A stretch of DNA of 64,000 bases from positions 248,001 through 312,000 of the forward strand of contig NZ_QWGG01000001.1 in the NCBI RefSeq assembly GCF_003730195.1, read 5' to 3'. The notes under the pieces were generated by a model, which was given only the letters and a program-made list of their open reading frames with translations, did no database searches and was not told the origin of the DNA. The DNA comes from Halosimplex salinum. Lineage in GTDB: Archaea; Halobacteriota; Halobacteria; Halobacteriales; Haloarculaceae. Made by a program: the position numbers and the translations under genes. Below, piece after piece: positions 36,499 through 55,642 of the stretch (its first letter is position 1; each line of letters starts with the position of its first letter).

Positions 36499-38316
36499 TC
36501 AGTCGTCGGCGAGCACGTCGGTCGCGACCGTCGAGTTCCCGCTCAGAGAGTCGAGCGGGACGGTCTCGGTGCCGGCCGGCGTCTCGATAGTCGCGGTGAC
36601 GGCGACTTCCATCGCCGAGGACTCGCCGTTCCGCACGTGGCGGACCCACCACTCGTCCATCCGCGAGTTGTCGAGTTCCATCGTGAACTCGACGGCCCGC
36701 GACTCGCCCGGCGGGACGGTGTAGCTCTCCGGGACGGTCCGGTTCGCGAGCACCACGCCGCCGAGTGTCACCCGGTAGTCGATGGCGGTGACGGTCACTT
36801 CCTCGCGCTGCTGATTTTCCAGGGTCGCGCGCACGTCGACCGGTGCGGTCTCGGGCGTCGCCGTCCCCCACGCGACCGATCCCGGCCGGACGACGAGCGT
36901 CTCCCGCCCGCCGACGGTGACCGTCTCGGACTCCGCGTCACCGATCCCGGCCAGCACGTCGGTCTCGAACTCGCTCGTCCGGTCGGGGACGGACACGTCG
37001 AACTGCGTGAACCCGAGGTCGGCACGAACCGTCGGGATAGTCCGGATCGTCGACCGCTCGCCGCCGTTGATGTGACGCGCCCACCACGACGGCACGCGGG
37101 AGTTGTTCATCGCCGACGCGAGCTCGAACTCGGACCGACCGGCGTCGAGACTCGCGACCCGCCGGTGGCCGCTGGCGACCGGGACGCCGTTGATCTCGGT
37201 TCGCTGCGACACGTCGAGCGCGAGCAGGTCGTTTATCGCCGCGTCGCTGTTGGTGTTGTTCAGCGCGACCGTCGTCAGCACCTCCGTGGTCGCGTCGGTG
37301 ACCTCGCCCCACTCCCGGTCCGCGTCCGCGACCTCCGGGCGATCGAACGAGACGTCCTGCGCCGGCGGCTCCCGGGCAGTCACGCCCGTCGCCCCGCCGC
37401 CGAGCACGTCGGTCTCGAGGTCGAGCGACCGCTCGTAGATCCGGAGCGGGACCCGCTCGTACTCGCCGTCGCGTTCGACGAGGCCGTAGAGTCGGACGGA
37501 GACCTCGCTCCGCTCGCTGTCGTTCACGTGGTTCGCCCACCAGTCGGCCATCTTCGCCGAATCGAGCGCCATCCGCACGTCGAGCGTCCCCGTCTCGCCG
37601 GGGTCCACTGCGACGCCCGACAGCCGACGGTCGTCGGCCAGCGTCACGTCGTTCATCTCGACGGTGTACTCGACGCCGTCGAGGGTCACCGGGTAGTCGT
37701 GGACGTTCTCGACCGTCGAACTGACGGTCAGCGGCGTCACCGACTCGTCGGCCTCGCCCCACTCCGCGGTCTGGCCTCGCACGCGGAGGAACGGTTCGCC
37801 CTGGAAGTCGACCGTCCGCTCGCCGTCGCCGGCGAAGCCGCCCAGCAGGTCCGTCTCGACGGTCGAGCGCTGGGCGGGCACCTCCCGGGAGAACCCCGGA
37901 CCGGAGACCGTCGCCTCGACGCGCAGCGTCGACCGCTCGTCGCCGTTGACGTGGGTGACCCACCAGTCCGCGATCCTCGTGTTGGACATCTGCGTCGAGA
38001 GTCGCAACTCGCTCGTTCCCGTGCCGAAGCCGACGCCAGTCTCCTCGCCGCGGGCGAGGACGACGTCGTTCAGTCGGGCCGAGTACGCCACGTCGACCAC
38101 GCCCGGCACGCCGACCGGGTTCGGGTTGTCCACGGTCGCGGTCGTCCTGATCTCCGTCGTCTCGCCGGTCACCGTCCCCCACTCGCTCTCGACGCCCGAG
38201 ACCGACGGCTCCGAGAGGACGCCCGTCCCGACGAGCACGCCGACGGCGACCGCCGACAGCAGCACGACTCCGAGAGATATCGCGACGACCCGCTTGATCC
38301 GGCGGCGAGAAAGCAT
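36499..38316 (-). CDS. LEA14-like (WHy-domain) membrane protein with four repeats
   Basis: 605 residues from ATG 38316. An N-terminal membrane helix (V-V-A-I-S-L-G-V-V-L-L-S-A-V-A-V-G) is followed by four tandem beta-sandwich repeats. Each contains N-x-N-type loops and the same W-W-x-x-H-(V/I)-N motif, at about residues 118, 259, 411 and 556, so the period is about 146. This is the LEA-2/water-stress-and-hypersensitive-response fold. The repeats face outside. A role in desiccation or envelope stability is inferred from the family only. Confidence 0.85.
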   Translation of the reverse strand: MLSRRRIKRVVAISLGVVLLSAVAVGVLVGTGVLSEPSVSGVESEWGTVTGETTEIRTTATVDNPNPVGVPGVVDVAYSARLNDVVLARGEETGVGFGTGTSELRLSTQMSNTRIADWWVTHVNGDERSTLRVEATVSGPGFSREVPAQRSTVETDLLGGFAGDGERTVDFQGEPFLRVRGQTAEWGEADESVTPLTVSSTVENVHDYPVTLDGVEYTVEMNDVTLADDRRLSGVAVDPGETGTLDVRMALDSAKMADWWANHVNDSERSEVSVRLYGLVERDGEYERVPLRIYERSLDLETDVLGGGATGVTAREPPAQDVSFDRPEVADADREWGEVTDATTEVLTTVALNNTNSDAAINDLLALDVSQRTEINGVPVASGHRRVASLDAGRSEFELASAMNNSRVPSWWARHINGGERSTIRTIPTVRADLGFTQFDVSVPDRTSEFETDVLAGIGDAESETVTVGGRETLVVRPGSVAWGTATPETAPVDVRATLENQQREEVTVTAIDYRVTLGGVVLANRTVPESYTVPPGESRAVEFTMELDNSRMDEWWVRHVRNGESSAMEVAVTATIETPAGTETVPLDSLSGNSTVATDVLADD

Positions 38317-38671
38317 CACCGGAGGGGAACCCCTGCAACGGGAAAAGGGTTCGGCTCGAGTCGGTGAACTCGGCAGGACGTCGACCGGATCTGCGTAACT
38401 GTCGATCGGAAGTCGTGAGTTACGGTCTCGCCAGTGACAGGGATCTGCGTGGGTCGCCACCGATTTTCACCGCGGTCTCGGTCCTCTTCTCCGTACCTCG
38501 GTTCTCTTCTCCGTGCCTCGGTGACTCTCACCGCGGTCTCCGTCGAACTCGTCGCACCGCCGGAGCGAGCGGTCCTCGAACCGTGTAAGCGCGATCTACC
38601 GTGCGTAACTCCGGGTATCGATCCCGATGGCGCCGAATAATTAACTCGACGACACGAAAAGGTCGCGGCGG
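38317..38671. other. Intergenic region with tandem repeat
   Basis: Two 20-base units (38477-38496 and 38497-38516, CTCGGT-CTCTTCTCCGT type, two differences) are flanked by an exact 13-base direct repeat, TCACCGCGGTCTC, at 38467-38479 and 38528-38540. No gene seen. Confidence 0.5.
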
Positions 38672-39301
38672 ATGAAACGACGAACACTGGTCAGACTGCT
38701 GGGCGGTGCGGCCGTCGTCGGCACCGCCGGTTGTCAGACCGACGACGGCGGTGCCGGGGGACCGGCCGCCACGACGGACGGTTCCCCGACGCAGACAGAT
38801 CCCGCCGCGCAGACGGGGTCGCCCACGCAGACAGCGTCCCCGGCCCAGACCGACACGCCCACGGAGACACCGATGACATCCGAGACCGACCAGACAGCGA
38901 CAGAGGACGTATCGCAGGCCGACGGGGTCGTGACCATCACCGCCGATGAGAGCGTCGAAGCGACCGTGGACCGGATCGAGAGCGACGGTGAGGACGGCCC
39001 GCTGACGCTGATGACGACTGTCGACCACGCGGAGAACGCCGCGTCAGTCGACGAGGAACTCCCACCGACCACGCTCCTGATATTCGGCAACCCCGCCGTC
39101 GGGACGCCGCTGATGCAGGCCAGCAGGACGGTCGCGATCGACCTCCCGCAGAAGCTGCTCGTCTGGGAGGAGGACGGACAGACGAGAGTGGCCTACAACG
39201 ACCCGGAGTATCTCGCCCGGAGACACGGCATCGAGGGCCAGAGCGACCGGCTCGAACAGATCCGGTCCGCGCTCGACGGGCTCGCGTCGGGCGGCGAGTA
39301 G
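38672..39301 (+). CDS. DUF302-domain lipoprotein
   Basis: 209 residues. It starts M-K-R-R-T-L-V-R-L-L-G-G with a twin-Arg signal and lipobox T-A-G-C, so it is lipid-anchored outside. A long Thr/Pro/Gln linker (S-P-T-Q-T-type repeats) precedes a DUF302 domain: D-H-A-E-N-A-A-S-V, L-L-I-F-G-N-P-A-V-G-T-P-L-M-Q, and Y-N-D-P-E-Y-L-A-R-R-H. DUF302 proteins form small dimeric domains, function unknown. Confidence 0.88.
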   Translation: MKRRTLVRLLGGAAVVGTAGCQTDDGGAGGPAATTDGSPTQTDPAAQTGSPTQTASPAQTDTPTETPMTSETDQTATEDVSQADGVVTITADESVEATVDRIESDGEDGPLTLMTTVDHAENAASVDEELPPTTLLIFGNPAVGTPLMQASRTVAIDLPQKLLVWEEDGQTRVAYNDPEYLARRHGIEGQSDRLEQIRSALDGLASGGE

Positions 39302-39340: not shown

Positions 39341-40084
39341 TCAGAACGTCTCGGGGACGTCGGGGTCGAGTCCGCCCTCGTCTCCGTCGCCCTCCTGATC
39401 TTCGTCGAACAGCGTCCCGCCGTAGGGGCGGAAGTCGAACCCGTAGGCGTTCGTGACCGTCTCCAGTTCGTCCTCGCGGCGAGCGATCTGGCCGGTGTCG
39501 AACGCCGAGTCCTCGACCGCACCGACGAGTTCGTCGTCGTCGATCCGGCCCTCGGCGTAGGCGGCGGCCACCCCGTCGCGGAAGGCGTCGGCGTTGCGAC
39601 GGAGGCGTTTCGCCTCGTCGAAGGCCGACCGGATCTCGGGGGTGGGTTCGCTCTTGTTGGTCTTGATGCGCTCCAGTTCGTCGGTCGCCCGCCGGTCGTA
39701 CTCGGCGGCCCGGTCGAGCACTTCGACGGTCTGTTCGGCGGCCGAGAGCTCGTCCCAGGCGTCGCGGGCCTGGGGCGCGACCAGCAGGTCGACGATGTCG
39801 GCCCAGCTCGTCGTCCGCTCGGGGTCCTCGAACGCCTCCGCGACGAACGCGCCGACGTGTTCCTCGGGGATCGGGACGCCCATCACCTCGTCGTCGGCCG
39901 GTTCTCCGTCGGTGCGGTCGGCCGCTCCGGCTCCGTCGCCGCCTCCGCGGTCGGTCGCTGCGGGCTGTGCACCGAGCGAGTACGTCTCGCCGTCGGTCGA
40001 TGCGTTCGAGCGGTCAGTCGATGTGTTCGGACGGTCGGTCGATCCGTTCGAGTGGTCAGTCGGTGGGTTCGAGTGGTCGGTCAT
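39341..40084 (-). CDS. Helical accessory protein of the molybdoenzyme operon, with heptad repeat tail
   Basis: 247 residues from ATG 40084 (four-base overlap with the HEAT-repeat gene). Residues 2-36 are five near-identical 7-residue repeats, T-D-(H/R)-S-N-x-(P/S) type, encoded by 21-base repeats. The rest is a soluble helical domain with R-R-A-T-D-E-L-E-R-I and G-V-A-A-A-Y-A-E-G-R-I-D-D-D-E-L. No known domain is recognised. As the last gene of the operon it may be an assembly factor; this is a guess from position. Confidence 0.6.
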   Translation of the reverse strand: MTDHSNPPTDHSNGSTDRPNTSTDRSNASTDGETYSLGAQPAATDRGGGDGAGAADRTDGEPADDEVMGVPIPEEHVGAFVAEAFEDPERTTSWADIVDLLVAPQARDAWDELSAAEQTVEVLDRAAEYDRRATDELERIKTNKSEPTPEIRSAFDEAKRLRRNADAFRDGVAAAYAEGRIDDDELVGAVEDSAFDTGQIARREDELETVTNAYGFDFRPYGGTLFDEDQEGDGDEGGLDPDVPETF

Positions 40085-41112
40085 GAGTTGTCGGAGTCGC
40101 CGTGGTTCGAACGGTCGTCTCCGTCGCTCGATTCCGCGCCGGCGTGCGAGTCGCTGTCGTACCGGGTCGGCGACTCGCGGTGTCCCTGCGGCCGCGGGTC
40201 GGGGCCGGGATGCGAGCCCACCTGGCCGGTCACGCCGTCGACCGGCGCGGCTCCCGGTTGCGGTGCGCCCGGGCCGTCGTCGAAGCGACCCGGCGGCGCG
40301 TCGGACCCGCCGGGCGGTTTCGCCCGGTCGGTTCCGGTCCGGGCGCCCGGTGCGGCTGGATCCGAGCCCTGCGAACCGCTGGTCACGTCGAGTTCCTCGG
40401 GCTCGACGCCGCGCGAACGGGCGAGCGCCTGCTCGGCGGTCCGGCACACGTCGTCGCTCCGGTCCTCGATCCCGTGGCGCTCCAGCGCTTCCTCGGCGCG
40501 GTCGGTCCCGAGGTCGCCCAGTCCCTCGGCGGCCTTCGCACGGACGAACGATCCCGGGTCCCGCGCGAGCACCGCGGCGAGCAGGCGAACCGCCCGCTCC
40601 GTCTCCGCCTCGTCGGGCAGGAACTGCGCGGCGTACTCGCGGACCGCGGGGGCGGGGTCGTTCTTCAGCCGGTCGACCAGCGTCTCGGCGTCGCCCTCGA
40701 CTCGCGCGAGGGCGATGAGCGCGTTCCGGCGGACGGCCGGGTGGTCGTCCGTCAGGGCGTCGCGCAACGGTACAGTCGCGCCCGGTGCCGTCCGCGAGAG
40801 GGCGACGACCGCCTCCGCGCGAACCCACTCGTCGGGGTCGTCCAGCGCGTCCGTGATCGTCTCCCGCTCGCGGCCCGCGACGCCGAGCGCCTCGACCGCG
40901 AACTGTCGCGTCTTTGCGTCGTCGGCCGAGCGGGCGAGGCCGACGAGGGCGTCGACGGTCGCGTCGGCGAGTCCGGCTTCGGCCTCGTCGACCAGCGCGA
41001 GCGCGGCCTCGCGCTTCTCCGGCTGTTCGCCCTCCAGCGCCGCTTGGAGTCCGGCCTCGTCCTCGGCCGGCGCGCGGCCGCGGGCGCTCCAGTTGGCGTA
41101 GTCGTCGGTCAT
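40081..41112 (-). CDS. HEAT-repeat protein, molybdoenzyme operon 1
   Basis: 343 residues. The first 215 are HEAT repeats with V-R-A-E-A-V-V-A-L, A-V-R-R-N-A-L-I-A-L and V-R-E-Y-A-A-Q-F-L; the C-terminal 120 are Gly/Asp/Pro-rich and probably disordered. A clear paralogue is in the nitrate reductase operon (58174). Both operons encode one, so the protein is probably a dedicated scaffold for building this enzyme type rather than a general protein. Confidence 0.8.
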   Translation of the reverse strand: MTDDYANWSARGRAPAEDEAGLQAALEGEQPEKREAALALVDEAEAGLADATVDALVGLARSADDAKTRQFAVEALGVAGRERETITDALDDPDEWVRAEAVVALSRTAPGATVPLRDALTDDHPAVRRNALIALARVEGDAETLVDRLKNDPAPAVREYAAQFLPDEAETERAVRLLAAVLARDPGSFVRAKAAEGLGDLGTDRAEEALERHGIEDRSDDVCRTAEQALARSRGVEPEELDVTSGSQGSDPAAPGARTGTDRAKPPGGSDAPPGRFDDGPGAPQPGAAPVDGVTGQVGSHPGPDPRPQGHRESPTRYDSDSHAGAESSDGDDRSNHGDSDNS

Positions 41113-42173
41113 CAGGTCATCCTCCAGTAGGCGACGAACCAGACGAGGACGGCCGAGAGGACGAGCCCGCTGATGAACCCGGGGAGCGCGAGCGTGCGCC
41201 CGTCCGGGGCCCCGCCGCCGCCGGATTCGCCGTCTCCGACCTGGAGACTGCCTCCGTCCCCGGCCCCGTCGCCGCCGCTGTCGGGGAGGGTGAGGTCAGC
41301 GGTATCGGGGTCCATCGTCGAGTACTGGAGCGTGATCGATTTCTGGCCGTTTACCTCGTCGGCGCTCCCGTTCCAGACGGCGAAGGCGACGTACACCTGC
41401 TCGTCCGTGACCGCCGCGTCGTACTCTCCAGCGCCCGTGCGCTCGCGGACGAAGGTGACCTCCCAGCCGTCGTCGGTCCGCTCGCCGCTCGCCCGGACCG
41501 GCTGGGCGGACGCGTGGCTCAGCGACCCGAAGCCCTTCGCGTAGTAGTTCTGCGCGCCGTTCTCGTACTCCGGCCCTGACAGCGGGTTCCCGGCCTGCTG
41601 CCCCGGTCGGGTCACCGAGTCGTCGTGCGGGTAGGCGTACATGTCGCCGGCGCCCTCGCTCTGTTCGGGTCCGTGACGCCAGCTCGCCCGCCAGTACCAG
41701 ATGTTGACCGGGTCGCCCGCGGCGCCCATCGTGATCGGGGGCTGATTGCCGGTCCGTAGCATCACCGCCGCGCCGTCGCTGAAGTTGGTCGGCTCCGCGA
41801 TGTCGGCGTCCCGCGTCGGGTCCTCCCACGACAGGCGGACCGCGACGTGGCTCTCGTTGGCGACCGTCTGCACGTCGAGTTCGTCGACGCTTCCGCCGCC
41901 GAACGGCGGCGCCATCTGCTGTTTGGACAGCGAGACCGTCCGGGTCTCCGCGTCCTGCCACTCGACCGCCGACGGCTCGCTCGGGACGCTGTCGACGCTC
42001 TCAAGCGGCTGGGCGCCGCCCGTGACCGCCGCGACGACCGCGGCCTGCCCGACCAGTAGCACCGCGACCGTCACGACGGCGAGCGTCGTCGCGGTCTTCG
42101 CCGCCTGCCCGTCGAGCGGGAGCCGCTTCGCCAGGCGAGACAGCGTCGCGTCGCCGCCGTCGTCACTCCGCAT
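41112..42173 (-). CDS. Heme-b-binding subunit (EbdC/DdhC-like), operon 1
   Basis: 353 residues. An N-terminal membrane helix and a C-terminal membrane helix flank an extracellular domain with W-E-D-P-T-R-D, P-P-I-T-M-G-A-A-G and N-I-W-Y-W-R-A-S-W. This is the ethylbenzene-dehydrogenase gamma family that binds one heme b with Met and Lys ligands. It would take electrons from the Fe-S subunit to the chain, or the reverse. A paralogue is at 55697 in the nitrate reductase operon. Confidence 0.82.
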   Translation of the reverse strand: MRSDDGGDATLSRLAKRLPLDGQAAKTATTLAVVTVAVLLVGQAAVVAAVTGGAQPLESVDSVPSEPSAVEWQDAETRTVSLSKQQMAPPFGGGSVDELDVQTVANESHVAVRLSWEDPTRDADIAEPTNFSDGAAVMLRTGNQPPITMGAAGDPVNIWYWRASWRHGPEQSEGAGDMYAYPHDDSVTRPGQQAGNPLSGPEYENGAQNYYAKGFGSLSHASAQPVRASGERTDDGWEVTFVRERTGAGEYDAAVTDEQVYVAFAVWNGSADEVNGQKSITLQYSTMDPDTADLTLPDSGGDGAGDGGSLQVGDGESGGGGAPDGRTLALPGFISGLVLSAVLVWFVAYWRMT

Positions 42174-43020
42174 CGTCGCTCACCTCCGTCGACGCGCCGG
42201 CGTCCGCATGGTCGGCGTCGCTCGCGTCGTCCGTGTCGCCGTCCGCCCGGCTGTCGGCGTGGTCGCGTCTGACCAGGTCGGCGGCGAGCGTCGCACTCGC
42301 GCGATAGGCGCGTCTGCCCGGTCCGTCGTCGTCGCCGACGGTCCGCTCAACGTCGTGGGCGAACGCCGGGACGAACTCGACGAGGTGTTCGTCCAGCACG
42401 GTCGCCTCGGCGTCGGCCAGTCGCTCGGCAGCCGTCCCGTCGCCCTCGTGGATCGCGACCGCGCGCTGGGCCGTGATCACCTGCATCAACTCCAGTTCGG
42501 CCGCGACGTGGTCCTGCCGTTCGGCGAACGACTCGCCGGGCTCGACGCCGAACGTCTCCATCAGCCCGACGACGGTCGCGATCCGGCGCTGGGACTCGCC
42601 CACGTCCGACCCGGTCGTGTAGTGGGCCTCGTAGGGTACGACGGGGTACTCGCCCCCGTCCGGGAGGCCGAACAGCGCGTTGTACGCGGATTCGAGGTCG
42701 GACACCGAGGCGTCGGCGACGGCGTCGAGGAACCGCTCGGCCTCGGCGCGGAGTCCGAGTCGCTCGGCGGCCTGCAACACGCCGTCGCGAGCGTCGTCGT
42801 CGGTCAGCGTCGCGCGCATCGCTTCGTCGGGATAGCAGAAGGCGCCGCCGACAGCCCCGTAGAGCGTCGCCCGCGACGCCTGGAGCGCCTCGGCGGCCGC
42901 CGGGTCGCGGACGCCGTCGTCGACGCCGGCAGCGTCGACCCTGGCACCGTCTCCGCCGGTCGGTCGTGCGTCGGTGCCTGTCGTGGCGGACGTACCGTCC
43001 GCTTCGTCGAGTCTCGTCAT
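42163..43020 (-). CDS. TorD/DmsD-family chaperone, operon 1
   Basis: 285 residues from ATG 43020 (four-base overlap with the Fe-S subunit gene). The helical NarJ/TorD fold has L-Y-G-A-V-G-G-A-F-C-Y-P-D-E, Y-N-A-L-F-G-L-P, P-Y-E-A-H-Y and a late D-H-V-A-A-E-L-E-L-M, the E-x-x-x-P-x-D-H equivalent. It binds the alpha-subunit Tat signal and helps insert the molybdenum cofactor. The polar tails at both ends are haloarchaeal extensions. Confidence 0.85.
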   Translation of the reverse strand: MTRLDEADGTSATTGTDARPTGGDGARVDAAGVDDGVRDPAAAEALQASRATLYGAVGGAFCYPDEAMRATLTDDDARDGVLQAAERLGLRAEAERFLDAVADASVSDLESAYNALFGLPDGGEYPVVPYEAHYTTGSDVGESQRRIATVVGLMETFGVEPGESFAERQDHVAAELELMQVITAQRAVAIHEGDGTAAERLADAEATVLDEHLVEFVPAFAHDVERTVGDDDGPGRRAYRASATLAADLVRRDHADSRADGDTDDASDADHADAGASTEVSDDAE

Positions 43021-44192
43021 GGCTGGTTGGTCCACTGCTCGCCCTCGCGGACTTCGAGTTCCTCCTCGAAGGGGAGGTCCGCGACCTTCTCGCCCTCGCG
43101 GTTCCACCCCTTGACGCGGTGCTCCGTGACCTCGTAGGTCTCGATGAGCTCCGTCGTCGCACCGAACAGCTGGAGGATGCCGAGGACGTGATGCGACGGG
43201 TTACGCACGCGGTCCTGGACGATCTCGATCGACTCCCGGTACGTGTCGCCGGGCCAGTCGTTCAGTTTGACCTCCGTGTTGGGCGTGAACATCTGCGTGA
43301 GGAACTCCGGCGGCACGTGATACGGCGGCATGTAGAACACCTGCGGGCGCGTGCCGAACTGCGGATAGAGGGGCAGCGCCACCTTCTCGTCGGAGTGGAC
43401 GAGGTAGTTGATCGGCGACCGGCCGCCGGGGGCGTCGCCACCCGGTGACTCGGCGTCGGGCCCCCGGTTGATGTTGCCGTGCAGGCGCGTCTTCCCGATA
43501 CACGAGGAGACACATCGCGGGACGAACCCCTCCTCGATGCGGGGGTAACAGCCGACGGGCTTTTCTGAAACTCCGGTCTCGGGGTTGTACATCGGCTTGT
43601 GGTACGGACAGCCCTTCACGCACCGTCGATACCCGCGACAGCGCTCCTGGTCGAGCAGGACGATGCCGTCCTCCTCGCGCTTGTAGATGGCCTGGCGCGG
43701 ACAGGCCGCGAGACAGGCGGGGTTCTTGCAGTGGTTGCAGAGTCGCGGCAGGTAGAACTGCCAGATGTCGTGGTGCTTGCCCTCCTCTAAGTCGCTCTCG
43801 ACGACCTCGCCCGTGGGGTACTCGCCGTGGACCTGGTCGTCGCCGAGCGCGGGGTACTCCCACTCTTCCTTGTCGGCGATGTAGCCCCGGACCTTCTCGC
43901 CCTGTTCGGCGGCCTCGAAGATGGTCTGGCCGGCGTCGAGGTCGTCGAGCAGGCGCATGTCCCAGCCCATCGGGTAGCCGCCGTAGGGCTCGGTCTCGAC
44001 GTTCATCCACCACATGTACTCCTCGCCCTTGCCGCTGGTCCAGGTGGACTTGCAGGCGAATGAGCAGGTGTTGCAGTTGATACAGCGGTTCGTGTTGATG
44101 ACCATCCCCCAGTGGTAGTCGCGCTCTTCCTCGCGGCGTTCGTAGGGGTAGTCGTGCTCCCGGCCGAGTTGTGGATTTTTCACCTGTGGCAT
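43017..44192 (-). CDS. Fe-S (beta) subunit of operon 1 molybdoenzyme
   Basis: 391 residues. Four Fe-S cluster motifs can be traced: C-I-N-C-N-T-C-S-F-A-C-K, C-N-H-C-K-N-P-A-C-L-A-A-C-P, C-R-G-Y-R-R-C-V-K-G-C-P, and later Cys pairs (C-Y-P-R and C-V-S-S-C). Tyr replaces one ligand in C-R-G-Y, where NarH has Trp, so one cluster is probably 3Fe-4S. No Tat signal of its own; it would be exported with the alpha subunit. Its start overlaps the alpha stop. Confidence 0.92.
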   Translation of the reverse strand: MPQVKNPQLGREHDYPYERREEERDYHWGMVINTNRCINCNTCSFACKSTWTSGKGEEYMWWMNVETEPYGGYPMGWDMRLLDDLDAGQTIFEAAEQGEKVRGYIADKEEWEYPALGDDQVHGEYPTGEVVESDLEEGKHHDIWQFYLPRLCNHCKNPACLAACPRQAIYKREEDGIVLLDQERCRGYRRCVKGCPYHKPMYNPETGVSEKPVGCYPRIEEGFVPRCVSSCIGKTRLHGNINRGPDAESPGGDAPGGRSPINYLVHSDEKVALPLYPQFGTRPQVFYMPPYHVPPEFLTQMFTPNTEVKLNDWPGDTYRESIEIVQDRVRNPSHHVLGILQLFGATTELIETYEVTEHRVKGWNREGEKVADLPFEEELEVREGEQWTNQP

Positions 44193-47100
44193 CAGTCGTC
44201 ACCTCCGCTCGCGGCGCCGTCCTGCAGCGACCCGCCGACGTAGCTCTGGAAGGCGTCGTCCTTCCGGGCGTCGGCCGGTTTCCAGTCCGCTTCCGCGTAC
44301 TTCTCGACGTCGACGAGGTCGTCGCGGTTGGTCCCCGTCGGCGCCCAGACGGTCTCCTCGTAGCCGTGTTCGAGCTCGGCCCCGTGCCAGGCGATCTCCT
44401 CGGGGACCTCCTCGGAGACGTTCGGGTCGCCGAACACCGCCTTGTGGACGAGGTCGTCGGTCTCCTGGAGCGGGTCGAGCCAGATGTTCGTCGTCGTGTT
44501 GTACCCCTTGATCCCGTCGGGGTCCTCCTCGTCGTCCGGGAAGTGCTGGGGCCACCAGCCGTGCCAGATCGTCAACTGGCCCATGTCTCCTGCAGAGCGG
44601 GGCCGCTGTCGTTCGCTGACCATCGCGCGGACGACGAGGTCGCCGCGTTTGCCGGAGATGCGGACGTAGTCGCCCGTCTCCACGTCGATGTTCGCGGCGT
44701 CTTCGGGGTGGATCTCGACGAACGCCTCGCCGAGCGGGGGCGCGTCCTCCGTCTCGCCGTCGCCCGTCGGGAACGAGAAGTCGTCGACGAGTCGTTCGGT
44801 CCCCTCGGGGTCGGCGTTGACGCTCCCGAAGTCACGGGCCGACCAGATGAGGTTCCAGTCGGTCATCCCCCACGAGGAGTGGGTCCGGTACTTCGGATGG
44901 GGCGTGTTGTAGTAGAACTGCTTGTCCTCGTCGTGATAGAGGGGGTTCTCCTCGTCTTTCGCGTCCTCCCACTTCTGGTTCACGCCGTAGGGGGTCCCCT
45001 CGACGCTCTCGACGTGGTCGAGGTCGTCGCGACCGAGTTCGAGGAACCGGTCTTCCTCCTTGTGGAACTCCATCCGGCCGGTCTTGGTGTAGAACGGTCG
45101 GTCCTCGTGGATCTGCGAGTAGAAGGGGATCCGCGGGTAGGTCTTCATGTTCAGGCGCTCGGGGCCGTCCCAGAGGTCGTCGACATTGATTCCGCGGGTC
45201 GTCATCCCCCTGTCGAAGGTGTCCTGGATGTAGTTGGTCACGTCCCCGTCCTCGTCGAGGAACTCCGCGAAGTACTCGCGGTAGGAGTCGACGTTGCGCT
45301 CCTCGGGCGGGATCTTCTCGTCCAGTTTCTCGGCCACCATCGCGACGGCCTCCCCGTCCTGTTTCGTGTCGTAGATGGGGTCCATCACCCCGTGGTCCAT
45401 GTGGACGAACGGGTTCTCCGGGCCGACGGTGATGTCCGGGTACTCACACTCCAGCCAGGAGGGGACCGGGAGCACGATGTCCGCGTGCCGGGCGGAGTAG
45501 GTCATGTGCATGTCAGAGACGATGAAACACTCGTTGCCGGTGTCCGGGTGTTTCACGAAGTTCTCGATGACGTGCTCCTGGTGTTTGGTCTGGTTCAGGA
45601 GGTTGCAGTTCATCGTCCACAGGATCTCCGGCCGGGACATCGTGTACGACTCGGCGTTGGTCGGCATCACCGGCTCCTCGGCGTCGCCCTGTGGGACGAG
45701 CTCCAGCTCGCGGTCGAAGTCGCCGCGCACCTCGTGGGGGTCGAGTTGCTCGCCGCCGAAGAAGGCGAAGGCGTAGCCCGGGTACATCCCGTGGGCCGCG
45801 TGGCCGTCCGGGTTGACGTAGTGGGGATACCCGTCCAGCAGTTCGATCTTGTACTGGCCGGAGTAGTTGTAGTAGCCCTGGCCCACGTCGCCGATGTTGC
45901 CGAGCATCGACTGAACGAAGAAGATGGCCCGCTGGAGCGAGTCGTTGGAGTGGAACCAGTGGTTGATCCCCTCGCCCGTGAACCACTGCCCCTTCTCCGC
46001 CTCGGCGAACTCCCGCGCGGTCTTCTTCAGCGCGTCGGCCGGGATGGTCGTGATGTCCTCGACGGTCTCGGGGTCGTAGCGCTCCATCACGTTGTCGCGC
46101 TGGCGCGCGAAGTCGGTCCGCACCGAGACCGTCGAGCCGTCGGTCAGTTCGACGTCTCGCTCGGCGTCCAGCTGCGCCGTCGTGGGCGTCTCCTCGCCGA
46201 CGTCCTCGCGAGTGACCGCGACCAGTTCGCCGTCCTCGCCGACGGCGACGAAGTCGCCCCAGTCGTTCTCCTCGTGCTGGTGCTCGGGGTCCTCGGGCGG
46301 CGCCTCGTGGTCCTCGAACACCTCGTGAGCGCGGAGGTACTTGCCGTCGTCCTCCCGAACGAGGAGCGGCAGGCTGGTGAACTGCCGCATGAAGTCGGCG
46401 TCGTACAGTTCCTCGTCGATAATGACGTAGGCGATACCGAGCGCGAACGCGGGGTCACTGCCCGGTCGGACGGGGAGCCAGCGGTCGCACTTCTGGACCG
46501 TCGGCGCGTAGTCCGGGTAGACGCCGACCATCTTCCCGCCGCGCTCGCGGGTCTCCTGCAGGAAGTGGTTGTCAGCGAGCTTGTTGTGGATGAGATTTTT
46601 GCCCTGGATGATGGTGTAGTCGGCCTGTCGCCACGCCGATGCGTCGGAGTCGGAGGTCTGGTAGCCGGTCGTGATGACGTGTCCCGGCGGCAAGTCGGCG
46701 TACCAGTCGTACTCGGTCCACTCGCAGCCACCGAAGATGGAAGCGAGTCGGCGGCCGGAGCCGTGGCGCGTGAACAGGCCGTCGGACTTGATCGCGTTGA
46801 AGATGTGGAACCGCTTCTCGTCCTCCAGGTTCGCCATCTTCTCGGCGATGAGGTCGATCGCCTCGTCCCACGAGACCCGCTCGAACTCGTCCTCGCCGCG
46901 GCCCTCGGGGTTGGGGTCGTCGGGGTCCCACCCCTTGCGGACCATCGGGTACTTGATCCGCGAGGGCTCGAACGTCCGACGGTGGAGCGTCAGGCCCTTC
47001 ATACACCCGCGCGGGTTCCAGTGCTGGGTCACGCCGGCGTCCTCGTAGCCCGAGGGGCCGACCGAGGGGTCCTCGTTGTGATAGACCTGCTCGGCCCGGA

Positions 47101-47359
47101 TCGGGACGCCGTTTTTCATGTAGAAGTTCAGCGCACACGACTGGGTACAGTTGGGGTGACAGACCGTCCAGTCTACCTCGTCGTAGTCGTAGATGTCGTG
47201 GTACACCTGCTCCCAGTCGCGATTCGGGTACGACTTGAGCGGGTTCTCGACCGACGTGACGGGGTCGACCGCCTGGGTCGCTCCCCACGCCGTCCCGACC
47301 AGGGCGCCGACGCTCCCGGCGCCGGCGGCCGCCAGGAAGTCGCGTCGCGACAGCGTCAC
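44192..47359 (-). CDS. Molybdopterin (alpha) subunit, type II DMSO-reductase family, unknown substrate
   Basis: 1055 residues from GTG 47359. S-R-R-D-F-L-A-A-A-G is a Tat signal, so the enzyme faces outside. Cluster FS0 ligands are C67-x3-C71-x3-C75 and C119, where nitrate reductases start with His. Y-D-W-Y-A-D-L-P-P (Asp222) is the Asp molybdenum ligand of type II enzymes. The rest follows the NarG/DdhA/SerA plan. Candidate substrates are DMSO, TMAO, (per)chlorate, selenate or dimethyl sulfide. The divergent regulator at 47676 fits a DmsR-like system, favouring S- or N-oxides. Confidence 0.9.
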   Translation of the reverse strand: MTLSRRDFLAAAGAGSVGALVGTAWGATQAVDPVTSVENPLKSYPNRDWEQVYHDIYDYDEVDWTVCHPNCTQSCALNFYMKNGVPIRAEQVYHNEDPSVGPSGYEDAGVTQHWNPRGCMKGLTLHRRTFEPSRIKYPMVRKGWDPDDPNPEGRGEDEFERVSWDEAIDLIAEKMANLEDEKRFHIFNAIKSDGLFTRHGSGRRLASIFGGCEWTEYDWYADLPPGHVITTGYQTSDSDASAWRQADYTIIQGKNLIHNKLADNHFLQETRERGGKMVGVYPDYAPTVQKCDRWLPVRPGSDPAFALGIAYVIIDEELYDADFMRQFTSLPLLVREDDGKYLRAHEVFEDHEAPPEDPEHQHEENDWGDFVAVGEDGELVAVTREDVGEETPTTAQLDAERDVELTDGSTVSVRTDFARQRDNVMERYDPETVEDITTIPADALKKTAREFAEAEKGQWFTGEGINHWFHSNDSLQRAIFFVQSMLGNIGDVGQGYYNYSGQYKIELLDGYPHYVNPDGHAAHGMYPGYAFAFFGGEQLDPHEVRGDFDRELELVPQGDAEEPVMPTNAESYTMSRPEILWTMNCNLLNQTKHQEHVIENFVKHPDTGNECFIVSDMHMTYSARHADIVLPVPSWLECEYPDITVGPENPFVHMDHGVMDPIYDTKQDGEAVAMVAEKLDEKIPPEERNVDSYREYFAEFLDEDGDVTNYIQDTFDRGMTTRGINVDDLWDGPERLNMKTYPRIPFYSQIHEDRPFYTKTGRMEFHKEEDRFLELGRDDLDHVESVEGTPYGVNQKWEDAKDEENPLYHDEDKQFYYNTPHPKYRTHSSWGMTDWNLIWSARDFGSVNADPEGTERLVDDFSFPTGDGETEDAPPLGEAFVEIHPEDAANIDVETGDYVRISGKRGDLVVRAMVSERQRPRSAGDMGQLTIWHGWWPQHFPDDEEDPDGIKGYNTTTNIWLDPLQETDDLVHKAVFGDPNVSEEVPEEIAWHGAELEHGYEETVWAPTGTNRDDLVDVEKYAEADWKPADARKDDAFQSYVGGSLQDGAASGGDD

Positions 47360-47675
47360 GCTCGGTCACCTCCCGTTACTCTGCTCGCCAGTGTCTGGCG
47401 CATATCTACCCGTGAGTAATCCCCGCCACCTCAACCCGTAAGCCCGTTCCCAGCCCCGGGAAACGGGGGCGAAAGTGTTCCCCCCGTCTTTCAGTCAGGT
47501 GCGCCACGATACTGCGGGCGTTCAAGTCCCCTCTCGGAATCACGTGGGGGCGGACGGGGTCGCCGACGACGGGGCCGTATCGGTGACTTAAACGACGCGA
47601 ACAGGTTCGAATGAAATTCCCAACCTCTGAGAGCGCCGAAAGGGGTTCTTAATGGGGGACGGCGTTCGCCCGACT
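47360..47675. promoter_or_regulatory. Divergent control region of operon 1 and the regulator gene
   Basis: A TATA-like AGATATG on the minus strand (about 47402-47408) lies some 45 bases from the alpha start. For the regulator, TTCTTAAT (47646-47653) lies about 25 bases from ATG 47676, so that message is probably leaderless. Between them is the CGAA-N4-TTCG inverted repeat at 47598-47609. Confidence 0.5.
47598..47609. promoter_or_regulatory. CGAA-N4-TTCG inverted repeat (site 1)
   Basis: CGAACAGGTTCG, a perfect palindrome around a four-base spacer. The same motif precedes the nitrate reductase operon at 48470-48481. A motif of this form has been reported for haloarchaeal denitrification promoters (from memory). 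Likely operator of the adjacent regulator. Confidence 0.5.
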
Positions 47676-48332
47676 ATGGGAGCTGAACCGACAGGCGGAA
47701 TCCAGGTCAGGCTCGCCGTGGAGGCGGCAGACGCGTGCCCGGTGGCGGCGTCGACCGGGGGCGACACCATCGCCCGGTCGGCGACGTGGAGTCGCCGGGG
47801 TGACGACGGCCGGGTGGTCGAGGAGTACGACATCGTCGGCGACTACGACGACTCCGAACTCCCCGACGACGCGTCGGTCGTCTTCGAGACCGACAGGTCG
47901 GAACGGGTACGGTTCACCCGTGACGGGAGCGACTGCATCTGCGAGGCCGTCGAGGCGCTCGGGACGCCCGTCAGCGACGTGACCGCGTCGCGGGGGACGC
48001 TCCGACTGAGTTTCCACGCGACCGACGTCGAGACTGTCCGCGCGGCCGTCGACGAACTCGACGAGATATACGGGTCCGTCCGTATCGACCGCCTCGCCCG
48101 AACGGGCGACGGCGAGACCGACGACATGGTCCTCGTCGACCGCGGCAGACTCACCGATCGCCAGCAGGAGGTGCTCGAGACGGCGATGGAGATGGGCTAC
48201 TTCCAGCGGCCGCGCTCGGCCAACGCGACGGAAGTCGCCGACGAACTCGACATCAGCCCGTCGACGTTCGCCGAACACCTCGCCTCCGCCCAGTCGAAGG
48301 TGCTGGACTCGCTGCTGGAGGGGTCGGCGTGA
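47676..48332 (+). CDS. Bat/DmsR/NarO-type HTH-10 regulator
   Basis: 218 residues from ATG 47676. The C-terminal HTH-10 domain (L-T-D-R-Q-Q-E-V-L-E-T-A-M-E-M-G-Y-F-x-x-P-R, then A-T-E-V-A-D-E-L-D-I-S-P-S-T-F-A-E-H-L) is that of bacterio-opsin-activator-like regulators. The N-terminal domain has A-C-P and D-C-I-C-E-A-V, three Cys of the four-Cys motif described for NarO (C-xn-C-x-C-x7-C). The fourth position reads Thr. It lies between the two molybdoenzyme operons and may sense redox or oxygen and control both. Confidence 0.85.
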   Translation: MGAEPTGGIQVRLAVEAADACPVAASTGGDTIARSATWSRRGDDGRVVEEYDIVGDYDDSELPDDASVVFETDRSERVRFTRDGSDCICEAVEALGTPVSDVTASRGTLRLSFHATDVETVRAAVDELDEIYGSVRIDRLARTGDGETDDMVLVDRGRLTDRQQEVLETAMEMGYFQRPRSANATEVADELDISPSTFAEHLASAQSKVLDSLLEGSA

Positions 48333-51310: not shown

Positions 51311-51501
51311 GCGACGAGGTGCGACACGCCGTCACGATGTCCGCGCGTCGATACCGCTGGCTGGACAGGCTCACGAAACTCGCCGGCGTCGCGCTGATAG
51401 CCGCGGGGCTGGAGGTCGGTGGCGACACGCTCCCCGGCGTCGCGCTCGCGGCGCTCGGCGTCGCACTCGGACTCGCGACCGTGCTGATCTCGAAGCAATG
51501 A
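51307..51501 (+). CDS. Small membrane protein of the nitrate reductase operon
   Basis: 64 residues with two hydrophobic helices ([11 protein letters not shown] and [12 protein letters not shown]). It overlaps genes on both sides by four bases (ATGA). It may be the small ORF between narC and narG known from Haloferax nar operons. It has no recognised domain; it could be a subunit or an assembly protein of the membrane part. Confidence 0.7.
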
Positions 51502-54500
51502 CCGACGATTCCCACATGACCGACGAACACGACACGACCGAGGTCGAGACGACTGGTATCGACAGCGAAGCGACCGACCGTGCCGAGACTGACGGCGGCG
51601 CGGACATCGACGTCTCCCGCCGCGACTTCCTGAAGGGCGTCGGCGCGGCCGGCGTCGCCGGCGCGGGGGCCTCCCAGACCGGGCTCGCACAGGACTTCCT
51701 CCAGATGACGCGGCTGCAGGTCGTGAACGACCCGATCGGTGACTACCCCTACCGCGAGTGGGAGGACCTGTACCGCGAGCAGTGGGACTGGGACTCCAAA
51801 CACAGGTCGACCCACTCGGTCAACTGCACCGGGTCCTGTTCGTGGAACGTCTACGTCAAGAACGGGCAGGTCTGGCGCGAGGAACAGGCCGGCGACTACC
51901 CGAACTTCGACGAGAGCCTGCCCGACCCCAACCCGCGCGGCTGTCAGAAGGGCGCCTGTTACACGGACTACGTCAACGCCGACCAGCGCATCAAGTACCC
52001 GATGCGCCGCACCGGCGAGCGCGGCGAGGGCAAGTGGCAGCGCATCTCCTGGGACGAGGCGCTGACGGAGATCGCGGAGCACGTCGTCGACGAGGTCGAG
52101 GCAGGCCGGTACGACGCCATCTCGGGGTTCACGCCGATTCCCGCGATGTCGCCCGTCTCGTTCGCTTCGGGGTCTCGACTCGTCAACCTCCTCGGAGGCG
52201 TCAGTCACAGCTTCTACGACTGGTACTCCGACCTGCCGCCGGGTCAGCCGATCACCTGGGGGACCCAGACTGACAACGCCGAGAGCGCCGACTGGTACAA
52301 CGCCGACTACATCATCGCGTGGGGGTCGAACATCAACGTCACGCGCATCCCCGACGCGAAGTTCTTCCTCGACGCCGGCTACAACGGGACCAAGCGCGTC
52401 GGCGTGTTCACCGACTACTCCCAGACGGCGATCCACACCGACGAGTGGATCTCCCCGCAGGGCGGCACCGACACCGCACTTGCGCTCGGGATGGCCCAGA
52501 CCATCGTCGACGAGGAACTGTACGACGAGGCCCACCTGAAAGAGCAGACCGACATGCCGCTGCTCGTCCGCGAGGACACCGGCAAGTTCCTCCGCGCGAG
52601 CGAGGTACCGGGCCTCGGCGCGGACGTCGACCGGCCGGAGAAGGCGTTCGTGATGGTCGACGGCGACGGGGCCCTGCGGCTGGCTCCGGGGTCGCTGGGC
52701 GACCGCGACGGCCAGCACGACTCCGAGGCGAGCATCGAACTCGACTTCGACCCACGACTGGCCGTCGAGCGGTCGGTCGACCTGTCCGAAGACGCGGACG
52801 GGGACACCGTCGAGGTTCGGTCGGTCTGGGAGAACCTCAGGGACGAACTCGCGGAGTACACCCCCGAGACGGTCCACGAGGAGACGGGCGTCGGCGAGGA
52901 GACGTATCAGCGGATCGCTCGCGAGTTCGCCGAGGCGGGCAAGGCGAAGATCATCCACGGCAAGGGCGTCAACGACTGGTACCACAACGACCTCGGGAAC
53001 CGCGCTATCCAGCTACTGGTCACCCTCACCGGGAACCTCGGGGAGCAAGGGACCGGCCTCGACCACTACGTCGGGCAGGAGAAGATCTGGACGTTCCACG
53101 GCTGGAAGACCCTCTCCTTCCCGACCGGGAGCGTGCGCGGCGTGCCGACGACGCTGTGGACCTACTTCCACGCGGGCATCCTCGACAACACCGACGAGGA
53201 CACCGCCGACAAGATCCGCGAGTCCATCGACGAGGGGTGGATGCCCGTCTACCCCGAGGAACGCGACGACGGCTCCCGCCCGGACCCGTCGACGATGTTC
53301 GTCTGGCGCGGGAACTACTTCAACCAGGCCAAGGGCAACGTCGCCGTCGAGGAGACCCTGTGGCCCAAACTCGACCTCGTCGTGGACATCAACTTCCGAA
53401 TGGACTCGACGGCGCTGTACTCGGACATCGTCCTCCCGGCGGCGAGCCACTACGAGAAACACGACCTCTCGATGACGGACATGCACAGCTACGTGCACCC
53501 GTTCACGCCCGCCGTCGAACCGCTCGGCGAGGCCAAGACCGACTGGGAGATCTTCCGCCTGCTCGCCGAGAAGATACAGGAGGTCGCCACCGAGCGCGGC
53601 GTCGAACCCATCGACGACCGGAAGTTCGACCGCGAGATCGACCTGCAGTCGATCTACGACGACTACGTCCGCGACTGGGAGACCGGCGAGGAGGGAGCCC
53701 TCGCCGAGGACAGAGCGGCCTGTGAGTACATCCTCGAACACTCCGAAGAGACCAATCCCGAAGGGAGCGACGAGCAGATCACGTTCGAGGACATCGACGA
53801 ACAGCCCCAGCGGTTCCTCGCGTCCGGGGACCACTGGACCTCGGACATCGAGGACGGGGAAGCCTACACGCCGTGGAAGCAGTACGTGCAGGACAAGGAG
53901 CCCTGGCCGACGTTCACGGGGCGCCAGCAGTACTACGTCGACCACGACTGGTTCCTCGAACTCGGCGAGGAACTGCCGACCCACAAGGAGGGGCCGGAGA
54001 ACACCGGCGGGAGCTACCCGCTCTCGTACAGCACGCCGCACAGTCGGTGGTCGATCCACTCGACGTGGCGGGACAACGAGACGATGCTCCGCCTGCAGCG
54101 GGGCGAACCCACGGTGTTCCTCAACCCCGAGGACGCCGAGGAGCGCGGTATCGAGGACGGGGACACCGTCGAGGTGTTCAACGACCTCGGGAGCGTCGAG
54201 GTGCAGGCGAAGATCTACCCGTCGAGCGAACCCGGCACGGTCAGACACTTCTTCTCCTGGGAGAAGTTCCAGTACCCCGGCCGGGACAACTTCAACACGC
54301 TCGTCCCGATGTACATGAAGCCGACCCAGCTGGTCCAGTACCCCGCCGACACCGGCGAGCATCTCTACTTCTTCCCCAACTACTGGGGGCCGACGGGCGT
54401 CAACTCCGACGTGCGCGTCGACGTGCGCCCGGCCGACCAGGGCGAGGGAGAGAGCGAGGACGACGCCGAGGCCGACGTGCGGTTGACTGACGGCGGAGAA

Positions 54501-54575
54501 CCTGTGGCGGACGGCGGAGAACCCGTGGCGGACGACGGAGAACCCGTGGCGGACGACGGAGGTGATGCCGCGTGA
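51498..54575 (+). CDS. narG: Respiratory nitrate reductase alpha subunit
   Basis: 1025 residues from ATG 51498. A Tat signal (S-R-R-D-F-L-K-G-V-G, from residue 40) directs it outside. FS0 ligands are H106-x3-C110-x3-C114 and C149, the nitrate reductase pattern. Y-D-W-Y-S-D-L-P-P (Asp245) gives the molybdenum ligand. The K-G-V-N-D-W-Y-H and later regions agree with archaeal pNarG. It reduces nitrate to nitrite with NarH. The C-terminus carries three G-G-E-P-V-A-D repeats from a 21-base tandem repeat. It overlaps narH by GTGA. Confidence 0.94.
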   Translation: MTDDSHMTDEHDTTEVETTGIDSEATDRAETDGGADIDVSRRDFLKGVGAAGVAGAGASQTGLAQDFLQMTRLQVVNDPIGDYPYREWEDLYREQWDWDSKHRSTHSVNCTGSCSWNVYVKNGQVWREEQAGDYPNFDESLPDPNPRGCQKGACYTDYVNADQRIKYPMRRTGERGEGKWQRISWDEALTEIAEHVVDEVEAGRYDAISGFTPIPAMSPVSFASGSRLVNLLGGVSHSFYDWYSDLPPGQPITWGTQTDNAESADWYNADYIIAWGSNINVTRIPDAKFFLDAGYNGTKRVGVFTDYSQTAIHTDEWISPQGGTDTALALGMAQTIVDEELYDEAHLKEQTDMPLLVREDTGKFLRASEVPGLGADVDRPEKAFVMVDGDGALRLAPGSLGDRDGQHDSEASIELDFDPRLAVERSVDLSEDADGDTVEVRSVWENLRDELAEYTPETVHEETGVGEETYQRIAREFAEAGKAKIIHGKGVNDWYHNDLGNRAIQLLVTLTGNLGEQGTGLDHYVGQEKIWTFHGWKTLSFPTGSVRGVPTTLWTYFHAGILDNTDEDTADKIRESIDEGWMPVYPEERDDGSRPDPSTMFVWRGNYFNQAKGNVAVEETLWPKLDLVVDINFRMDSTALYSDIVLPAASHYEKHDLSMTDMHSYVHPFTPAVEPLGEAKTDWEIFRLLAEKIQEVATERGVEPIDDRKFDREIDLQSIYDDYVRDWETGEEGALAEDRAACEYILEHSEETNPEGSDEQITFEDIDEQPQRFLASGDHWTSDIEDGEAYTPWKQYVQDKEPWPTFTGRQQYYVDHDWFLELGEELPTHKEGPENTGGSYPLSYSTPHSRWSIHSTWRDNETMLRLQRGEPTVFLNPEDAEERGIEDGDTVEVFNDLGSVEVQAKIYPSSEPGTVRHFFSWEKFQYPGRDNFNTLVPMYMKPTQLVQYPADTGEHLYFFPNYWGPTGVNSDVRVDVRPADQGEGESEDDAEADVRLTDGGEPVADGGEPVADDGEPVADDGGDAA
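54492..54554 (+). repeat. Three 21-bp tandem repeats at the narG 3' end
   Basis: Units at 54492-54512, 54513-54533 and 54534-54554 differ by only one or two bases and encode (G/D)-G-E-P-V-A-D three times. They make a flexible acidic tail beyond the folded part of NarG, so copy number could vary between strains. Confidence 0.85.
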
Positions 54576-55642
54576 GCACCGACGACGCGCAGGAGGAGGA
54601 CACGCACATCGACATCGCGGACGGCGTCGACCACCAGGTCGCGATGGTGATGGACCTGAACAAGTGCATCGGCTGTCAGACGTGTACGGTCGCGTGCAAG
54701 ACGCTCTGGACGGAGGGCGGCGGCCGCGAGCACATGTACTGGAACAACGTCGAGACCAAGCCCGGCGAGGGCTACCCCGAGGGCTGGGAGGATTCGGGCG
54801 GCGGCTGGCAGTCCGACGACCACAGCGAGCGCCAGCCCGGCGAGATCCCCGGTCAGGAGGAGTACGGCGGCGACTGGGAGTTCAACCACGAGGAGATATT
54901 CTACGACGGCAGCGACGAACCGCTCGCCCCCCAGAGCGACCCCGAGTGGGGGCCGAACTGGGACGAGGACCAGGGCGCGGGCGAGTACCCCAACAGCTAC
55001 TACTTCTACCTCCCGCGGATCTGCAACCACTGCACCCACCCCTCCTGCGTCGAGGCCTGTCCGCGGAAGGCCCTCTACAAGCGCGAGGAGGACGGCATCG
55101 TCCTCGTCGACCAGGAGCGCTGTCGGGGCTACCGCTACTGCGTCGAGGGCTGCCCCTACAAGAAGGTGTACTACAACGCCGTCTCGAAGAAGTCGGAGAA
55201 GTGCATCTTCTGCTTCCCGCGCCTCGAGGGCGAGGGGCCGGACGACACGGTCCACGCGACCGCCTGCGCGGAGGAGTGTCCGCCACAGCTCCGGCTGGTC
55301 GGCTACCTCGACGACGAGGACGGCCCCATCTACAAGCTCGTCGAGGAGTACGAGGTGGCGCTGCCGCTCCACCCGGAGTTCGAGACGGTGCCGAACGTCT
55401 ACTACATCCCGCCGTACGCGCCGCCACAGCACTCCGAGGACGGCGAGACCCTCGAGTCCGTGGACCGCATCCCGAACGACTACCTCGAAGAGCTGTTCGG
55501 CGACCGCGTGAACGACGCGCTGGACACGATCGAACGCCACCGCGACCGCGTGCGTCGCGGCGGCGAGAGCGAACTCATGGAGATGCTCCAGGACAAGAAT
55601 CCGGCACAGCAGTACAGACTGGAGGTGTTCGACGATGAGTGA
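54572..55642 (+). CDS. narH: Respiratory nitrate reductase beta subunit
   Basis: 356 residues from GTG 54572. Cluster motifs: C-I-G-C-Q-T-C-T-V-A-C-K, C-N-H-C-T-H-P-S-C-V-E-A-C-P, C-R-G-Y-R-Y-C-V-E-G-C-P-Y-K-K, and C-I-F-C-F-P-R with C-A-E-E-C. Three 4Fe-4S and one 3Fe-4S clusters are expected. It passes electrons to NarG. The 3' end shows a 61-base duplication scar: without it, L-E-V-F-D would be followed directly by a TGATG junction with the next gene. Confidence 0.93.
   Translation: MSTDDAQEEDTHIDIADGVDHQVAMVMDLNKCIGCQTCTVACKTLWTEGGGREHMYWNNVETKPGEGYPEGWEDSGGGWQSDDHSERQPGEIPGQEEYGGDWEFNHEEIFYDGSDEPLAPQSDPEWGPNWDEDQGAGEYPNSYYFYLPRICNHCTHPSCVEACPRKALYKREEDGIVLVDQERCRGYRYCVEGCPYKKVYYNAVSKKSEKCIFCFPRLEGEGPDDTVHATACAEECPPQLRLVGYLDDEDGPIYKLVEEYEVALPLHPEFETVPNVYYIPPYAPPQHSEDGETLESVDRIPNDYLEELFGDRVNDALDTIERHRDRVRRGGESELMEMLQDKNPAQQYRLEVFDDE

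Follow-up and report, generated by a model that had tools for sequence, protein, structure and literature searches.

A deep haloarchaeal branch of type II molybdoenzymes with a four-cysteine FS0 motif: a candidate exported nitrate reductase

Introduction

What reaction is carried out by a type II molybdoenzyme whose FS0 cluster lacks the histidine described as common to this group? Passages of PMC8301774 and PMC8840923 state that every type II enzyme keeps the FS0 histidine ("fully conserved" in PMC8840923). The question is raised by a gene at 44192..47359 (minus strand) of a 64,000-nucleotide stretch of the Halosimplex salinum genome, which we call the window. An initial annotation of this DNA correctly located the reading frame, recognised the 1055-aa product as a type II (Asp) molybdoenzyme without the FS0 histidine, likened its FS0 motif to that of DmsA, called the four-cysteine FS0 with aspartate-ligated molybdenum an odd mix and left the substrate open. 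Here we describe the operon, the ligands, the phylogenetic place and the distribution of this enzyme, hereafter the target, and weigh the reactions that it may catalyse.

Results

The target is the catalytic alpha subunit of a compact operon

The alpha gene begins with GTG and its product with a twin-arginine (Tat) signal: MTLSRRDFLAAAG. It is followed on the minus strand by the gene for a 391-aa Fe-S (beta) subunit (43017..44192), whose start overlaps the alpha stop, by an assembly chaperone of the TorD/NarJ type (42163..43020; TIGR03482, PF02613; the frame opens at 43107 and the start was placed at an internal Met), and by a gamma subunit, a haem b protein of the ethylbenzene dehydrogenase type (41112..42173; PF09459). 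Aligned with 7b04_C, the gamma subunit retains the Met and Lys haem ligand positions, and it has hydrophobic segments near both ends. A HEAT-repeat protein (40081..41112), a conserved member of the operon, and a conserved hypothetical protein (39341..40084), the last gene of the operon core in the window, complete the order; in most other genomes a P-loop NTPase of the Mrp type comes after the latter. No gene for a quinol-oxidising subunit was seen among the operon members. Two further genes adjoin the operon, encoding a DUF302 protein whose start resembles that of a lipoprotein (38672-39301, plus strand) and a LEA_2-domain protein (36499-38460, minus strand).

Divergent to the operon lies the gene of a DmsR-type regulator (47652..48332, plus strand; PF24277 and HTH_10), which separates it from a second operon encoding an ordinary haloarchaeal NarG with the FS0 histidine (51501..54575, plus strand) and its NarH (54572-55642). 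The genome to which the window belongs (G000) encodes four PF00384 proteins: the target, two of the NarG type (L001, L002) and one other.

Rough dN/dS values of the alpha gene, 0.10 and 0.13 in comparisons with Halosimplex aquaticum and Haloarcula japonica, indicate that it is under purifying selection, and together with the conservation of FS0 described below they rule out an artefact or a pseudogene. An AlphaFold2 model of alpha built from a 32-row alignment reached a mean pLDDT of 56.5 and was left out of the argument.

FS0 combines a cysteine of the NXR type with a cysteine of the NarG type

The FS0 segment of alpha reads VCHPNCTQSC, placing Cys67, Cys71 and Cys75 three residues apart from one another, and a fourth cysteine, Cys119, lies in NPRGCMKG; position 1 is thus Cys67 in place of histidine. 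The segment YDWYADLPPGH supplies the molybdenum ligand, Asp222, which aligns with the aspartate of NarG, of nitrite oxidoreductase (NXR) and of a PcrA-like protein. The string CHPNCTQSC is unchanged in all 20 named orthologs and in 38 of the 39 ortholog loci read; the 39th, L063, is a split gene represented by its C-terminal half only.

Among 55 NXR-like relatives, 42 were parsed as Cys/Asp at FS0 positions 1 and 2 and 12 as Cys/Cys, while one (L156), which carries Thr for the Asn before the second cysteine, escaped parsing and is Cys/Cys by eye. Kuenenia NxrA itself has C67, D71, C75 and C115, as given in a passage of PMC8387239. FS0 is His/Cys in haloarchaeal NarG, in the NarG of E. coli and Thermus and in ClrA, and Asn/Cys in the PcrA-like L202. 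The latter (L202 5881-8427), with Asn at the FS0 histidine position, is encoded on an Alisedimentitalea plasmid and adjoins a chlorite dismutase gene. Given this survey, the target has the NXR state at position 1 and the NarG state at position 2. The remaining active-site positions are divided in a similar manner. Asn70 lies at the substrate position; Tyr220 is as in NarG, whereas NXR-like rows have His; His467, the proton position, is found in NarG and in some NXR-like rows, others having Gln; and Tyr503 at the gate position is as in NXR-like rows, whereas the NarG rows aligned have Glu. Passages of PMC8301774 give the gate residue as Trp in PcrA and as Glu in haloarchaeal NarG.

A four-cysteine FS0 with an Asp-type molybdenum site also occurs in NXR-like alpha subunits of Chloroflexota, UCB2 and Poribacteria (L146-L155, L157, L158); for one of them, L148, the match to Kuenenia NxrA (7b04) reaches 1616 bits. 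The combination, rightly noticed as out of the ordinary, is therefore uncommon and yet not unique, and the statements in passages of PMC8301774 and PMC8840923 that the FS0 histidine is universal need qualifying. PMC8301774 names in one passage two haloarchaeal 'NarG' without this histidine, which we take to be members of the NxrA-like clade from a remark on longer NarG in part of PMC8400030.

The comparison with DmsA was not supported. Haloarchaeal DmsA-type proteins do contain C-x3-C-x3-C, as in CSPNCRGKC and its variants, but a cysteine at the histidine position is the rule in the NXR half of the type II enzymes (55/55, one by eye), and a pattern scan of the haloarchaeal DmsA-type rows saw no Asp motif in them. 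Neither the Asp motif nor the profile scores place the target alpha with DmsA-type proteins: it scores 427 bits to TIGR03479, the NCBIfam model of the type II alpha subunit, and 183 to TIGR02166. The former value is under the curated cut-off of 984.75, as are the 219-249 bits of the NXR-like haloarchaeal proteins.

The target clade is sister to the NXR-like clade

For all three subunits the best match of solved structure is Kuenenia NXR (7b04): 416 bits for alpha (PcrA 258, NarG 177, EbdA 150), 293 for beta (PcrB 196) and 81 for gamma (EbdC 54). As had been suggested, we placed alpha in a family tree. In a careful tree of 40 rows, taken from the 62 rows of a quick tree that agrees with it, a split supported at 100/100 sets the target and NXR-like clades apart from NarG, haloarchaeal NarG, ClrA and the PcrA-like protein, and each of the two is supported at 100/100 by itself; the stem of the target clade is long (0.97 changes per column). 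The root is a midpoint root only, and in the absence of EbdA, SerA, DdhA and solved PcrA that side of the tree consists of ClrA and the PcrA-like protein, both long branches, a plasmid search with ClrA for further type II references having added none. The sets A1 and A2 comprised 8 and 32 chosen sequences, respectively. The NXR-like clade is anchored by L167 of NC10, whose 1960 bits to Kuenenia NxrA mark it as a close relative. With these few outgroups the target clade appears as sister to the NXR-like clade; membership in periplasmic NXR was rejected, as the target lies beside the clade rather than inside it and differs from it in the Cys/Cys FS0 and in Tyr220. By sequence, then, the target represents a deep, haloarchaea-only branch that falls neither inside the NXR-like clade nor with haloarchaeal NarG.

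The beta subunit lacks one cysteine of FS2

The beta subunit carries a change that the initial annotation missed and that is odder than FS0. Where other type II beta subunits read EKC or QKC, the target clade reads EKPVGC (EKPIGC in two). In the window the residue is Pro214; by alignment it takes the place of Cys244 of E. coli NarH, which we take to ligate FS2 with C26, C247 and C259 in the usual two-cluster ferredoxin pattern. Proline stands here in 59 of 59 beta rows of the target clade (rows that overlap in genomes), and in the alignment 4/4 target rows have Pro and 29/29 other rows Cys, one of the 29 (L169_501) being another ferredoxin-type protein. In the beta subunit of the window there are 14 cysteines in total, one at each of the 14 remaining conserved ligand positions.

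With three cysteines, FS2 is probably a [3Fe-4S] cluster, the simplest expectation, or one altered in some other way. A possible, though clearly less probable, arrangement is an ordinary [4Fe-4S] cluster held by a non-cysteine ligand or by a cysteine from elsewhere, leaving the electron wire functionally unchanged; it concerns the mechanism and not the substrate. With all 14 cysteines occupied there is no spare one in beta, and proline is an unusual cluster ligand, both of which count against such a cluster. Non-cysteine ligands are known, however, at FS0 of the family (His, Asp; passages of PMC8387239). Part of PMC8840923 lists FS2 potentials of about -400 mV (EbDH), -337 mV (DMS dehydrogenase), -336 mV (selenate reductase) and -420 mV (NarGHI), and calls FS2 a potential barrier; a natural clade without one FS2 ligand lets this role in type II enzymes be tested.

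Carriers of the target are rich in denitrification genes

Orthologs with at least 77% identity are present in 36 of a sample of 391 genomes of the class, including that of the window, and below this value identity falls to about 38%. The 36 include two carriers with split genes and exclude a decayed remnant in G176. In the split cases, G034 (Natrinema pallidum) and G091, the alpha gene lies in two frames, and in G176 only an apparently decayed piece is left; either true decay or sequencing error may account for these. A scan of named genomes (best 80 of 293 matches, 75 loci) gave 20 named orthologs, from Halosimplex, Haloarcula, Natrinema, Halostella, Halorussus, Halomicroarcula, Halobaculum and Natrialba, the closest being from Halosimplex (94 and 92%); after a gap that starts at 78%, the next matches are NXR-like proteins from many phyla, at 32% and below. 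The literature searched, which comprised open-licence papers, gave no description of the clade or of its FS2 substitution, and three Halobaculum plasmids carry copies annotated only as 'molybdopterin-dependent oxidoreductase'.

qNor (PF22085) is encoded in 35 of the 36 carriers versus 170 of the 355 other genomes (Fisher p ~1e-9), or, counted by genus, in 11/11 carrier genera versus 42/75 (p ~0.005), and nirK in 32/36 versus 178/355 (p ~5e-6); none of these p values takes phylogeny into account. Judged by coordinates, 12 of the 36 carriers, representing 6 of 11 genera, have narG, nirK or norB within ~15 kb of the target (G000, G325, G128, G031, G053, G374, G146, G297, G088, G266, G351 and G231; in G088 the linkage was counted across the origin of a circular plasmid), and the same linkage is seen at the named Natrialba locus and at two of Halorussus. 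Like the co-occurrence, the linkage counts are correlational and not phylogenetically independent.

Half of the 36 carriers (18) also encode an ordinary NarG that passes the family cut-off, indicating that the target is not simply a replacement of NarG. Of the other 18, 14 have no type II match at E 1e-40 besides the target, two have in addition only a DmsA-type protein, and the last two an NxrA-like protein. It is the sole PF00384 protein of the genome in G374 and G266, with norB ~5 kb away in both and nirK ~7 kb from it in G374 and on another contig in G266. Halocyanin genes lie within ~10 kb of the target in several genomes. On two Halobaculum plasmids (L071 and L072, 6-11.8 kb) the operon adjoins a halocyanin and an rSAM-partnered candidate RiPP, and two radical-SAM-type proteins (TIGR04053, TIGR04347), a MoaD-like protein and a formate/nitrite transporter are also encoded nearby.

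Two Natrinema species reported to grow on nitrate without NarGH carry the target

Part of a 2021 survey (PMC8400030) names seven haloarchaeal species with anaerobic growth on nitrate but no narGH. The target is present in Natrinema altunense and N. versiforme, both on that list; it is the only type II enzyme of N. versiforme and is joined in N. altunense by one of the DmsA type. The other molybdoenzymes of the two species are of the Fdh type, NasA and this one DmsA-type protein. At least four of the seven listed there, namely two Halobacterium species, Halorhabdus tiamatea and Salinirussus salinus, gave no ortholog in the best 80 of 293 matches. In a table from PMC11052009, N. altunense strains are coded with the narG and narH KOs (digit order as interpreted), suggesting that automatic annotation may already call the target gene narG. 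Natrinema J7-2 is coded there without these KOs, and no Nar is reported in the portion of its genome paper considered (PMC3402447).

Discussion

From the sequence, operon, ligand residues, phylogenetic place and distribution observed here we think it rather likely that the target complex is a Tat-exported, membrane-anchored alpha-beta-gamma molybdenum nitrate reductase of a haloarchaea-only clade sister to the periplasmic NXR and NXR-like enzymes. Tat export together with the hydrophobic segments near both ends of gamma suggests that the complex sits on the outer face of the membrane. Mo-bisMGD, with Asp222 as ligand and Asn70 serving the substrate, would be the site at which extracellular nitrate is reduced to nitrite. 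Electrons, probably donated by a high-potential carrier (halocyanin, for example), would be taken up at the gamma haem b and pass through the beta clusters to FS0; as the operon has no quinol-oxidising subunit and halocyanin genes lie nearby, a copper carrier is a possible partner. FS0 would be bound by four cysteines and FS2 by three, the latter probably as a [3Fe-4S] or otherwise altered cluster. The substrate, which had been considered open, is not established, but the context and distribution narrow it to nitrate or nitrite, short of proof.

As Kuenenia NXR works both ways, reducing nitrate and oxidising nitrite (passages of PMC8387239), the direction of the target is unreadable from its sequence. 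It is conceivable, though we regard it as unlikely, that in air the complex oxidises extracellular nitrite to nitrate, passing electrons from haem b to halocyanin and on to a terminal oxidase. That NXR is the nearest characterised structure for all three subunits, that the gate Tyr is as in NXR-like proteins, that the operon lacks a quinol-oxidising subunit and that NarG is also encoded in half of the carriers, so that the target could have a different role, would all fit such a function. Yet the target stands outside the NXR-like clade, lacks at FS0 the Asp of most NXR and has a NarG-like Tyr at position 220, its distribution tracks denitrification genes, and a nitrate reductase is the more sensible role for the sole PF00384 enzyme beside norB in G374 and G266; nor did the literature searched contain a nitrite-oxidising haloarchaeon. 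The denitrification context as a whole (qNor, nirK, the linkage, G374 and G266, and Natrinema) favours an extracellular nitrate reductase, against which stand the presence of NasA in both Natrinema species and the loss of activity of E. coli NarG upon exchange of its FS0 His for Cys, noted in a passage of PMC8301774.

Another acceptor, whether chlorate or perchlorate, selenate, DMSO or TMAO, strikes us as an improbable main substrate. In its favour are the frequent promiscuity of type II enzymes, the reduction of chlorate and perchlorate by haloarchaeal NarG (part of PMC8301774) and the DmsR-type regulator gene divergent to the operon; on the other hand DmsA-type proteins appear to be a separate family, the gate residue is Tyr and not the Trp reported for PcrA in PMC8301774 (in part), and the tie to nirK and norB is strong. 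A (per)chlorate reductase in particular was rejected, as the target does not group with ClrA or the PcrA-like protein but lies on a different branch, and the 58 ortholog loci and the window gave no match to chlorite dismutase. More speculatively still, and with little probability in our estimate, the clade may form a separate class of reversible nitrate/nitrite oxidoreductase, intermediate at FS0 between the NarG and NXR types, that has lost the low-potential barrier of FS2 and acts as nitrite oxidoreductase in at least some aerobic haloarchaea.

As a candidate nitrate reductase, the target would be well suited to be the nitrate-respiring enzyme that several relatives seemed to lack, and its operon is a concrete candidate for the nitrate respiration of N. 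altunense and N. versiforme without NarGH. A clade that branches between the NarG and NXR types and has a mixed FS0 also bears on the evolution of NXR.

Among known systems, the target has in common with periplasmic NxrABC (Kuenenia 7b04; L167 of NC10) the Cys at FS0 position 1, Asn70, His467 and the gate Tyr, as well as the Asp molybdenum ligand, a beta subunit, a gamma subunit of the EB_dh type with the Met/Lys haem ligand positions and Tat export; it differs in having Cys and not Asp at FS0 position 2, Tyr220 and not His, and Pro and not Cys at FS2, is ~90 aa shorter and is 33-37% identical to NXR-like rows. The NXR-like proteins of Chloroflexota, UCB2 and Poribacteria share with it the four-cysteine FS0 and the Asp-type molybdenum motif, but belong to the clade of the Kuenenia-type NXR, with His at 220 and the FS2 Cys in the beta rows read.

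Within haloarchaea, the long 'NarG' of Natrialbaceae and some others (L073-L081, L092-L094, L104, L184, L190, L197) are NxrA-like, with an FS0 of C-x-P-N-D-T-H-N-C; one of them, L077, aligns end to end with Kuenenia NxrA at 721 bits, and Halobiforma nitratireducens (G363, L184) has two of them and no NarG over the cut-off. Those of Natrialbaceae (~1200 aa) resemble the target in being exported, in the Cys at FS0 position 1 and in the company of denitrification genes, whereas their FS0 position 2 is Asp, their molybdenum motif is SWHTD or SFHTD, they fall inside the NXR-like clade and they are 33-35% identical to it. With haloarchaeal NarGH (pNar; 51501-55642 in the window) the target shares the molybdenum motif YDWY-x-D-L-P-P, Cys at FS0 position 2, an EB_dh-type gamma subunit, a TorD-like chaperone, HEAT and Mrp neighbours and export. 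In contrast, haloarchaeal NarG has His at FS0 position 1, Glu at the gate and Asp at the proton position, where the target has Cys, Tyr and His; it is ~35% identical and belongs to a different clade, and the haloarchaeal NarGH has complete FS2 cysteines, while the target operon is without Rieske or cytochrome b genes.
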